Source of the DNA: a virus
Strand: one strand, 5' to 3'
DNA length: 64,000 nucleotides
Virus record (IMG/VR): IMGVR_UViG_3300035698_006183
Span: 24,797 to 88,796 of that record
Positions 40,013-43,790 of this stretch are shown piece by piece. Position 1 is the first letter of the stretch. Every line of letters begins with the position of its first letter. Both the position numbers and the translations under genes were made by a program. The notes under the pieces are model-generated. The model made no database searches. It saw nothing but the letters and a program-made list of their open reading frames with translations, and was not told the origin of the DNA.

Positions 40013-40408
40013 ATGAAAAAAGTATTGCTTGTTCTGGTTCTGATGTTTCTTCTGATGTTCACCATGACGGTGAATGCTTCGATGATGGAGAATGGCCTGG
40101 AGCCGTTGGAAGTAGATGGAGACATTGAAGCTGAAGTAACAGAGGTTGCTGAAGTAGCTGCCCCAATGGACACCGAGAAGGCTACGGAGGTTCCGGCTGC
40201 TGCCACACTCTCTCCAGACGAGGAAAAACCAGTCATTCCGGCCATTATAAAGGAAATGCCAAACGTGCCGGATGTCGAGAAAGTTACAGACCTTGCTGAA
40301 GATGAAGCTGATGATGCTGGATGGGGCACTTATGGAGGCATCTTCGTGTTGCTTATTGCTGCCGTCATAGGAATTGTTCGTGTGAGACGTAAGAAAAAAC
40401 TGGTCTAA
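40013..40408 (+). CDS. Secreted/membrane protein with signal peptide and C-terminal TM anchor
   Basis: About 131 aa. ATG 40007 abuts AAGGAG; ATG 40013 in the same frame has 6-base spacing and is preferred. The N-terminus 'MKKVLLVLVLMFLLMF' plus a cleavage-like 'VNA-S' is a signal peptide. The middle is an acidic Ala/Glu/Pro linker (about 30-95). The C-terminus has one TM helix ('IFVLLIAAVIGIV') and a basic end 'RVRRKKK', giving N-out/C-in topology. It resembles a cell-surface anchored stalk. A unimolecular spanin would need a lipobox cysteine, which is absent. With the lipoprotein at 38955 it could form a two-component envelope system. The role is unproven. Confidence 0.65.
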   Translation: MKKVLLVLVLMFLLMFTMTVNASMMENGLEPLEVDGDIEAEVTEVAEVAAPMDTEKATEVPAAATLSPDEEKPVIPAIIKEMPNVPDVEKVTDLAEDEADDAGWGTYGGIFVLLIAAVIGIVRVRRKKKLV

Positions 40409-40443: not shown

Positions 40444-40480
40444 GCCCCGATAGGTTAATCCTGTCGGGGCCTTTTTATTT
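40444..40480. terminator. Strong bidirectional rho-independent terminator
   Basis: An 11-bp GC-rich stem (GCCCCGATAGG / CCTGTCGGGGC, one G-U pair) with a 5-base loop is followed on the + strand by CTTTTTATTT. On the - strand the stem is followed by a weaker T-rich run (TTTAATTTT). It lies exactly between the convergent genes at 40013-40408 (+) and 40479-41417 (-), and its T run overlaps the stop codon of the latter. It separates the tail/envelope transcript from the accessory genes. Confidence 0.9.
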
Positions 40481-41417
40481 AGATTACTATTCCGTAGTAA
40501 TGGGCAAGAAGAAGTTTTCTCACGAGCCTTTTGTAAGCAATGGCCACTTCCCATCTCTTTTCAAGAGGGTTCCATTTTCGTTCCTGTCGGGGAATAGAAG
40601 TTTTCAGTGCATCTTTGAATTTTCTGTTAAAAGGAGTTTTGACATATACCAGAGTAGCATCTGAAGTTAGGGCTTTCGGGTTCAACACAGGCTTCTGGGC
40701 TGGAGTAATAGGTTGAGGCTTTGGTGCAGGCTGGGTTAATGATCTCTGGTAGTCACGGAGGTCAGTCCAGCGTTTTCTGGCAATTGTCCATACTCCAGTA
40801 GTATCATCTGCTTTAGTTCCACAGGCCAGTTTACCACCAAGGTAGATACCCAGAATGATGTCGAGGAGACGTTTCTGGTTCATTGGTACATTCCAGATAA
40901 GTTTCCGTCCCTGTTTGGTTCCAGTATCTTCAGCATTTGGAATTTCATTCATGCTTTTAATGATTTTCCATTGGTTGGGGATGGCTACGAAGTATCTGTC
41001 ATTGTCAGCATCCTTCAGGATAGTGACCTGAGTTCTGTCAACTTCCAGACGATCAGCCATTTCCGTGTATCCGAGTTCACGGATGATACGGGAACATTTG
41101 AAGACTTCATTACGGTCGTGGTATTTACAGGCAGCCCAATACACCAGCAAGTTGGAACCGAGCCGTGCATTGGCTTTTTTGTTGTTCACCAGTTTACGGA
41201 AGCCGTGGATGATGTCCTCTGGGAGTCCTGAAATCAATAGGAGTCCCAGAGATGACATAACCATCTCTTCAGTTGGTTCATGGAGGGGGTTGTAGTAGCG
41301 TTTGGAACATACAGGGCCAATACCATGTTCAACAGATTCAGCATCTGTTAAAGGTTTGCCACATATACAGCATCGGGATGCTGTGAGTTTCGTGATGTCA
41401 GTGTTAGGGTTTGTCAT
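40479..41417 (-). CDS. Zinc-finger protein with C-terminal HARP-like domain
   Basis: About 312 aa. ATG at 41417 (reading leftward) has AGGAGGT 9 bases upstream; a TTG at 41423 is also in frame but too close. N-terminal 'CCICGKPLTDAESVEHGIGPVC' pattern (C16-C37, key residues Cys, Gly, Ser, His) is the short zinc module common in phage and actinobacterial proteins. The C-terminal 60 residues ('VYVKTPFNRKFKDALKTSIP', then 'RKWNPLEKRWEV') match the HARP domain pattern known from SMARCAL1-type annealing helicases. A Pro-rich linker (about 235-250) joins them. It probably binds DNA. A promoter-like element lies 21 bases upstream of the start and the terminator at the end. Confidence 0.7.
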   Translation of the reverse strand: MTNPNTDITKLTASRCCICGKPLTDAESVEHGIGPVCSKRYYNPLHEPTEEMVMSSLGLLLISGLPEDIIHGFRKLVNNKKANARLGSNLLVYWAACKYHDRNEVFKCSRIIRELGYTEMADRLEVDRTQVTILKDADNDRYFVAIPNQWKIIKSMNEIPNAEDTGTKQGRKLIWNVPMNQKRLLDIILGIYLGGKLACGTKADDTTGVWTIARKRWTDLRDYQRSLTQPAPKPQPITPAQKPVLNPKALTSDATLVYVKTPFNRKFKDALKTSIPRQERKWNPLEKRWEVAIAYKRLVRKLLLAHYYGIVI

Positions 41418-41475: not shown

Positions 41476-41601
41476 TTAAAAGGTGCTAAGAAATGCTGAG
41501 ACTTGGTCACTGCAGCCAGAACATTGGCTGAAACCAGCGGCCACGAGGCCGATAACGACAACTACAACCATGAGTTCCACGAGTGTGTAACCTTTTTTCA
41601 T
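41476..41601 (-). CDS. 41-aa peptide with class III (prepilin) signal sequence
   Basis: ATG at 41601 (leftward), TAA at 41478-41476; AAGGA lies 7-9 bases upstream. The first 23 residues read MKKG-YTLVE-LMVVVVVIG-LVAAGF, an almost textbook prepilin-peptidase site: two basic residues, cleavage Gly, aromatic +1, Glu at +5, then an unbroken hydrophobic helix. After the helix only 18 residues remain, with a CxxC pair ('QCSGC'), so there is no pilin globular domain. If processed by the host PilD-type peptidase it would be a 37-residue mini-pseudopilin able to enter a type IV pilus or type II secretion assembly. It is co-directional with its neighbours, between the 63-aa gene and the HARP-like gene. 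Confidence 0.75.
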   Translation of the reverse strand: MKKGYTLVELMVVVVVIGLVAAGFSQCSGCSDQVSAFLSTF

Positions 41602-41641
41602 TGTTCGATCCTTTCAAGTTAGGGTTTAGTATCTAAAGCAA

Positions 41642-41833
41642 TCAACAGTTGGGTACAACTACGTAACAGAAACCATCTTGGAGTTTAGGGTCAAATCTGA
41701 TATAAACCCTGTCAGCCTTGAAAGGGACCATTTCACAATCCCCACCGATCTCTATTAGATTTTTCAGATGATCCTCAAGAAGAAAAGGTTTTTGATCAGT
41801 GTATGTGGATTCTATTGAGTTCTGTTCGGCCAT
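41642..41833 (-). CDS. Small hypothetical protein, 63 aa
   Basis: ATG at 41833 with AAAGGT about 8 bases upstream. The product is a small acidic protein with beta character ('RVYIRFDPKLQDGFCYVVV') and no membrane segment. It lies 12 bases after the stop of the 105-aa gene and 40 bases before the prepilin-like gene on the same strand, so probably in one transcript. No family is recognised. Confidence 0.55.
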   Translation of the reverse strand: MAEQNSIESTYTDQKPFLLEDHLKNLIEIGGDCEMVPFKADRVYIRFDPKLQDGFCYVVVPNC

Positions 41834-41845
41834 GATAGTTTACCT

Positions 41846-42163
41846 TTAGGATACGAAAGCCGTAGCAATACGGTTCAGGTCTTTAATAATATCTTTGAAC
41901 GCTTCTGGGTGGATGTTAAGAGCTAGTTCAATCTGGTAATCCCGTTGGGGGTTTTTACTGATAATATTTGAGAAACCATTGTTCTCCGTCCATTTTTCCA
42001 GACGAGCATAACTCTGGAAACGGTAGGTGCTGTCATAATGGATGTTAATCTTGAATCTCTGAGTGCCAATACCAAACAAAATCGTTTGGTTGTAGTTACA
42101 TTCATTCTGTAGGTCTGCAAGAAAACCAGTGTCTTCAATAATAGTGATTTCAGCTTTAGCCAT
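41846..42163 (-). CDS. Hypothetical protein, 105 aa
   Basis: ATG at 42163 with GGAG 7 bases upstream. The protein is soluble, with mixed alpha/beta content and no recognised motif. It is the first gene of a leftward operon starting from the promoter candidate at 42203-42232, 39 bases upstream, and followed by the 63-aa, prepilin-like and HARP-like genes. The function is unknown. Confidence 0.6.
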   Translation of the reverse strand: MAKAEITIIEDTGFLADLQNECNYNQTILFGIGTQRFKINIHYDSTYRFQSYARLEKWTENNGFSNIISKNPQRDYQIELALNIHPEAFKDIIKDLNRIATAFVS

Positions 42164-43004: not shown

Positions 43005-43790
43005 ATGAAACATTTAATAAAAACAGCAATCCTGACAGCCATTTTGATTATTTCCCTTACAGGTTGTGGAACCATCATAAGTGTTGGTGACGGCAATCCC
43101 TTTGAAGACGGTGACGTAGATTCCGAAGGAACTGAACTCGATGGTGATGTAGAAGATTCTGAAAACGAAGCACCTTTACCTGATGGTGACACGGAAATTA
43201 CCGAAGATTCCGAAGATACCGAAGATACCGAAGATACCGAAGGTGAAGACACTGAGGATACCGAAGGTGAAGACACTGAGGATTCCGAAGATGTTGAGCT
43301 TGTTTGTGATGAGCCCGATGATTTTAGTGATTTAATTTGGCTTTTTGCTGAAGATATGGATAATAATCTAATAACGGAATTACATATAAATATAACTTGG
43401 AATCAAGCTAACAACTACTGTGAAGGTCTGGAACTTGATGGTTTTGATGACTGGAGACTACCTACAATCCACGAACTTCGTTCATTGATAATTGAAGATT
43501 CCTGTCCCGAAGCTGAAGAATGTGGCCTCATAGACCGTTGCTTACAAGGACTTGAAGAAGACAGTTCTTGTAATAAGATATGTGATTGGGACCAGAATAT
43601 AAATCCTGAAGGTTATGGTGACCTTGATTATGTTATAAGTAGTGTGAGTTATTGGTCATCTACAGAATCTACAGTTGAAGATGAACATTGGATTTTGAAT
43701 TTTGCACATGCTTCATTGAATAGTGGTAATGAAAACCATATACTTGCTGGAACATGTGTCCGTTCAGATGAGGACGAGGACATTCTATAA
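43005..43790 (+). CDS. Lipoprotein with acidic repeats and Lcl/DUF1566-like domain
   Basis: 261 aa, ATG 43005 behind AAGGAG. A signal peptide with lipobox 'SLTGC' (C21) is followed by a very acidic Asp/Glu/Thr linker (about 28-98) containing tandem DTEGEDTE repeats. Residues about 125-255 show the Lcl C-terminal/DUF1566 pattern: 'TWNQANNYCEGL', 'DDWRLPTIHEL', 'YWSST', 'HWILNF' and a final 'CVR'. These C-type-lectin-like domains are found in surface proteins of many bacteria, often myxobacteria and relatives. The mature protein is probably tethered to the outer membrane and extends outward. Expression in infected cells could alter the surface, for example block receptors. Its own promoter candidate lies upstream; the stop overlaps the next start (TAATG). 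Confidence 0.75.
   Translation: MKHLIKTAILTAILIISLTGCGTIISVGDGNPFEDGDVDSEGTELDGDVEDSENEAPLPDGDTEITEDSEDTEDTEDTEGEDTEDTEGEDTEDSEDVELVCDEPDDFSDLIWLFAEDMDNNLITELHINITWNQANNYCEGLELDGFDDWRLPTIHELRSLIIEDSCPEAEECGLIDRCLQGLEEDSSCNKICDWDQNINPEGYGDLDYVISSVSYWSSTESTVEDEHWILNFAHASLNSGNENHILAGTCVRSDEDEDIL
43233..43280 (+). repeat. Two perfect 24-bp tandem repeats in the lipoprotein linker
   Basis: The 24-bp unit beginning GATACCGAAGG and ending GACACTGAG is repeated twice head to tail (43233-43256, 43257-43280) and flanked by shorter GAAGATACC 9-mers from about 43203. It encodes the acidic DTEGEDTE linker. Identical units at DNA level point to recent slippage. Confidence 0.85.

Follow-up and report, generated by a model that had tools for sequence, protein, structure and literature searches.

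A mini-pseudopilin gene without a pilin head in a probable huge phage, and its recurring short counterparts as possible disturbers of host type 4 filament machines

The window analysed here, a 64,000-nucleotide stretch of a virus record, carries on the minus strand at 41476..41601 (stop codon included) a small open reading frame (ORF) of 41 amino acids, which is preceded by a Shine-Dalgarno sequence AAAGGA (41609..41614, minus strand) located 7 nt before the ATG. The translation of 41601-41476 is MKKGYTLVELMVVVVVIGLVAAGFSQCSGCSDQVSAFLSTF or, with the predicted cut marked, MKKG^YTLVELMVVVVVIGLVAAGFSQCSGCSDQVSAFLSTF. All features of the class III (N_methyl) signal are present in this peptide: the basic leader MKKG (41590..41601) ending in Gly4, after which the prepilin peptidase is predicted to cut, is followed by mature residues 1-20 (41530..41589) with Tyr at +1, Glu at +5 and a hydrophobic helix. 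The Pfam N_methyl profile (PF07963) matches residues 2-23 with E 4.4e-8 and 32.8 bits at a gathering cutoff of 21.2 bits, and a chance match is unlikely even when several hundred ORFs are counted. Six PHROG families are hit as well with E < 0.002; one of them bears the name pilin and the other five have no assigned function, and the profiles of three cover just 59-72 positions. In the AlphaFold2 model, which is of moderate confidence (mean pLDDT 76, pTM 0.41), a helix preceded by Lys-Lys spans residues 7-24, with pLDDT of about 92 for residues 11-20; the topology is likewise a prediction. The tail SQCSGCSDQVSAFLSTF (41479..41529), predicted to be periplasmic, contains a CxxC motif, C27-S-G-C30 (41512..41523), and a second helix modelled in it is of low confidence. 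These data agree with the sequence-only reading of this DNA, which had described a 41-residue minus-strand gene with its own ribosome site, a class III signal and a CxxC-containing tail; the tail length, given there as about 18 residues, is about 17.

The globular head of a pilin is absent, as the ORF stops 17 residues past the helix, and the space from the stop of the upstream gene (41642) to the ATG that follows (41417) is too small to accommodate one. A frameshifted full pilin was considered and rejected, since the overlapping frame 41561-41433 would still yield fewer than 60 residues; the lack of a pilin body, which had been proposed from the letters of the stretch, thus holds independently of sequence errors there. 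According to the profile scan this is the sole N_methyl ORF in the 88,796-base record.

The gene lies among DUF6011, UvrD-like helicase and small genes with no known function, and no lysis module is found around it; by this context a structural or lysis gene was ruled out as the identity of the ORF. The downstream gene (40479..41417, minus strand) encodes 312 residues with DUF6011 near the N-terminus. The upstream gene (41642..41833, minus strand) encodes 63 residues with no family and no apparent signal peptide, so that a pilin divided between the ORF and a head gene next to it is not favoured. Beyond it lies a 105-residue gene (41846..42163, minus strand) whose product weakly resembles, with E 1e-3 and below the cutoff, the TBP-like domain found in TOTE conflict systems. 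Two further genes were observed in the window: at 40013-40408 (plus strand) one for a 131-residue protein that starts with a signal peptide and closes with GWGTYGGIF-hydrophobic-RVRRKKK, a C-terminal end resembling a cell-surface sorting signal, and at 43005-43790 (plus strand) one for a lipoprotein that contains Glu/Asp/Thr repeats as well as an Lcl_C (PF07603) domain.

When used as bait in viral contigs, the 312- and 105-residue proteins and the UvrD-like helicase found no relatives, and the DnaB-like helicase of this phage found some. It shares 51% identity with that of the 485-kb uncultured phage LR745208.1, and its counterparts on three further virus contigs show 92%, 58% and 53% identity to it; the 58% match belongs to a relative of 435.8 kb, whose DUF6011 protein is 49% identical to that of the window. 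Because of this helicase kinship to the 485-kb phage and the 435.8-kb contig, the window probably stems from a huge phage.

The 435.8-kb relative encodes exactly one N_methyl ORF, the 46-residue MKGYTLIELLITVAIVGIVATAVVNWVGPCVSGVDSSGQGMESPVR, at a different genome position, with Tyr at +1 and a short Cys-containing tail. No mini-pseudopilin adjoins the DUF6011 homologues (49% and 46%) of related huge phages; the DUF6011 loci inspected, of the 435.8-kb phage and of a 126-kb relative, showed none. The profile scan found no N_methyl ORF in the 126-kb record or in LR745208.1, and a 54.6-kb relative appears to stop short of the region in question. The gene is therefore accessory, being present in this record and one relative and missing from the two others searched. 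No close homologue of the 41-residue peptide was found in the collections searched; tblastn of both the 41- and the 46-residue peptide against phages gave no match, probably due to their shortness and low complexity. Peptidase_A24, the prepilin peptidase, is missing from the four related records searched, which argues against a phage that brings its own processing enzyme.

Genes of this kind recur widely among phages. A DNA scan with the motif K-G-[FY]-T-L-[IVM]-E-L-M-[VIM]-V found at least 80 viral and at least 118 cellular stretches. Among the matches listed, a mature length of 50 residues or less was predicted for 11 of 65 viral versus 0 of 112 distinct closed cellular ORFs (Fisher 9e-6), and 100 residues or less for 26 of 65 versus 2 of 112 (2e-11), a contrast that refers to one motif and non-random samples, with longer pilins also included among the viral matches. 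Two further patterns added members with Tyr at +1 and of MKG type, including helix-only genes of 27-29 residues, and fifty distinct short forms were compiled. The signal is their best conserved part and sole common denominator, while the tails vary between phages from none to about 90 residues, so the functions of the short forms may differ. Cys residues in the tail recur in several other phage versions, and many relatives possess small tails with two of them. A variant of the motif that covered every +5 codon not starting with G, hence all residues but Glu, Asp, Gly, Ala and Val, had no viral matches versus at least 80 loci with Glu5. The sequence-only reading had named beforehand a lack of conservation in related phages as the finding that would speak against it; what was found is the 46-residue counterpart and similar genes in many other phages.

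Two tail types were observed within this set. One phage subfamily shares the tail C-x-G-Y-x-F...QI...G-x-G-[IV]-x-C, modelled by AlphaFold2 as the helix plus three short strands at moderate confidence (mean pLDDT 73, pTM 0.35), which looks like a disulphide-closed mini-head. In two virus contigs a common form of 37-40 residues has a second hydrophobic stretch and then an HF(I/M)xKxW end.

Isolated phages with single-copy versions include Aeromonas Aeh1/phiAS5 (27-31 residues, helix only), 44RR, KVP40-like and PAK_P3-like phages and phiW-14, and exactly one N_methyl ORF was present in each of the 8/8 positive isolate genomes scanned whole. In isolates the genes adjoin nrd, td and tk genes. In the Aeromonas jumbo Straboviridae (Aeh1, avDM12, phiWae14, phiAS5, PX29) the gene stands between nrdB and nrdD, and in VH7D and KVP40 it precedes thymidylate synthase; in the KVP40 group the match extends over most of the query in 28 records and is confined to the tail in another 18. 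The PAK_P3-like gene, found in 39 records, shares in PAK_P3 four-base overlaps with its neighbours; the main text of the PAK_P3 RNA-seq paper gave no timing for gp139. Pairwise dN/dS among PAK_P3-like phages is 0.21-0.51, and the first 20 codons of Aeh1 and phiAS5 differ by 12.5 changes per 15.8 synonymous sites and 5.5 per 44.2 nonsynonymous sites, values that come from short genes with small counts in pairwise comparison and, being below 1, indicate constraint at the protein level in these two lineages (Aeromonas and Pseudomonas). Two further features of individual isolates were recorded, in coordinates of the stretches analysed: Pseudomonas phage Ab17 (662-859) has a six-residue in-frame insertion (AILAIL repeat) in the pilin helix relative to PAK_P3, and in the unrelated Aeromonas phages 44RR2.8t (1524-2447) and AhP_Mru1 (1172-2032) a Band_7/SPFH lipoprotein gene adjoins the mini-pseudopilin or lies a few genes off. 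N_methyl was missing in 5/5 enteric Straboviridae scanned (T4, RB49, RB43, KP15, CC31) and also in Acinetobacter phages Acj9 and Ac42 and Aeromonas phage 65; since these three T4-like phages lack the signal as well and the positives were preselected, the link between the gene and the host group is only suggestive.

The resemblance to pilins had been noticed previously in individual genes. GenBank annotation of Aeh1p044 and PX29 gp038 notes similarity to pilin N-termini, KVP40.0030 is annotated as matching Pfam Pilin, the PAK_P3 gp139 note mentions pilin-like similarity, and pilin or PulG resemblance is annotated for several isolate genes. Thus the novelty suggested for a pilin stub does not extend to the resemblance itself; these annotations assign no function, no paper treating the short phage class III genes as a group was found in the open-licence literature, and a polymerisation-poison strategy is not described for phages in the part of it searched. 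Together with phiW-14 gp119 these four genes are, like the one in the window, short single-copy class III signal genes, but they belong to other phage lineages and have other tails.

Several small phage proteins that act on type IV pili are available for comparison. PfsE (PA0721) of the Pseudomonas filamentous phage Pf4 is a 30-residue inner-membrane protein with a cytoplasmic N-terminus, which binds the platform protein PilC and blocks piliation (PMC8764522). The 41-residue peptide is likewise a phage micro-protein, and its predicted helix may span the inner membrane once with the N-terminus inside; it differs in lacking the aromatic YxWGW motif of PfsE and in possessing a class III signal, while the word prepilin is absent from the PfsE paper (PMC8764522). 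Tip, Aqs1 and Zip of P. aeruginosa temperate phages, also small, disable the extension of type IV pili (PMC11656802); unlike the present peptide they are not pilin-like and act on cytoplasmic PilB or PilZ. The best sequence match among solved structures is a Geopilin domain 1 protein (E 0.0013): the Geobacter geopilin PilA-N is likewise mostly helix, but it is a cellular pilin whose mature chain of 61 residues builds bacterial filaments, whereas the phage form has 37 mature residues and no machinery of its own.

The best explanation of these data, to which we give a probability slightly short of even, is that the gene encodes a phage mini-pseudopilin, a class III signal plus N-terminal assembly helix with no head, which disturbs a type 4 filament machine of the host. 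It is known that the peptidase acts on prepilins from the cytoplasmic side and that, once in the filament, a subunit forms a pair between its Glu5 and the N-terminus of the subunit next to it (PMC10191384). As the peptide keeps the parts for cleavage and Glu5 pairing and lacks the head, and as PfsE provides a precedent at PilC, we infer its expression, cleavage, target, effect and benefit as follows. The mini-pseudopilin would be produced apart from the structural and lysis modules and enter the inner membrane with Lys-Lys-Gly on the inside, where host prepilin peptidase would cut after Gly4. The mature helix with Glu5 would then vie with the genuine pilins or pseudopilins for access to the platform protein or the base of the filament, and the headless subunit could stall, cap or destabilise the filament, so that the host's type IV pilus, or its type II secretion, would be weakened. 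The target may be the pilus, a competence pilus or type II secretion. Of the pilin-stub decoy proposed earlier, the genuine signal without a head and the conservation in phages are supported, and interference with a pilus or secretion machine stays as the best reading. The broader proposal, that headless pilins in many phage lineages are matured by the host, loaded into its type 4 filament machines and jam these from within, be it the pilus or type II secretion, is tentative, and we consider it closer to doubtful than to probable. The phage may benefit by shutting out competing phages that depend on pili, by preventing DNA uptake, or by suppressing motility and secretion while it infects the cell. 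Its own receptor need not be what is protected, as KVP40, which carries such a gene, uses the non-pilus receptor OmpK; superinfection exclusion, suggested previously, is thus not indicated at that level and is retained as one possible benefit.

Other explanations accommodate part of the same evidence. The pilin-like N-terminus could serve purely as a membrane anchor that inserts a small peptide for lysis timing, membrane protection or another exclusion system. Single-pass micro-proteins are common in phages, and the diversity of tails and the proximity to an SPFH lipoprotein gene in two unrelated Aeromonas phages fit this idea; nevertheless it is unlikely, as a plain anchor does not need the persistent Gly-1, Phe/Tyr+1 and buried Glu+5, and the genes occupy nucleotide-metabolism or accessory regions, not lysis modules. 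The small two-Cys tails of many relatives, the predicted three-strand mini-head of one family and the longer "pilin" genes of cyanophages would rather suit a working minor pilin, which is built into the host filament without harm to it and alters pilus binding or retraction. This seems improbable, given that the 41-residue peptide and the 27-31-residue Aeromonas forms have almost nothing to display.

The conservation of the signal above all other parts and the existence of helix-only forms would also be expected of a prepilin peptidase decoy, an abundant phage pre-peptide that stays out of the filament but ties up PilD, so that host pilins and pseudopilins mature more slowly. Such competition would require high abundance, and Glu5, tied chiefly to assembly and less to cleavage, is kept with no other residue matched in the one scan of non-G-initial codons, making the decoy distinctly improbable. 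A role of Glu5 in docking is described (PMC10191384). Finally, the ORF could be spurious, or be what decay has left of a host pilin captured by the phage. This would be consistent with the failure to find a close homologue in the collections searched; it is very improbable in view of the similar-sized counterpart in a related phage, the dN/dS below 1 and conserved position in other lineages, the good ribosome site and the compact gene spacing.

If interference by a mini-pseudopilin is the true function, it would represent a new phage route to the control of pili and secretion that works via the host's own maturation enzyme, and it would offer a possible function for several PHROG families that have none assigned (phrog_11263, 10597, 13280). 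The 27-31-residue Aeromonas genes would then be minimal natural inhibitors of a widely important assembly machine. Even with a different mechanism, a constrained pilin helix common to unrelated phages needs explaining.
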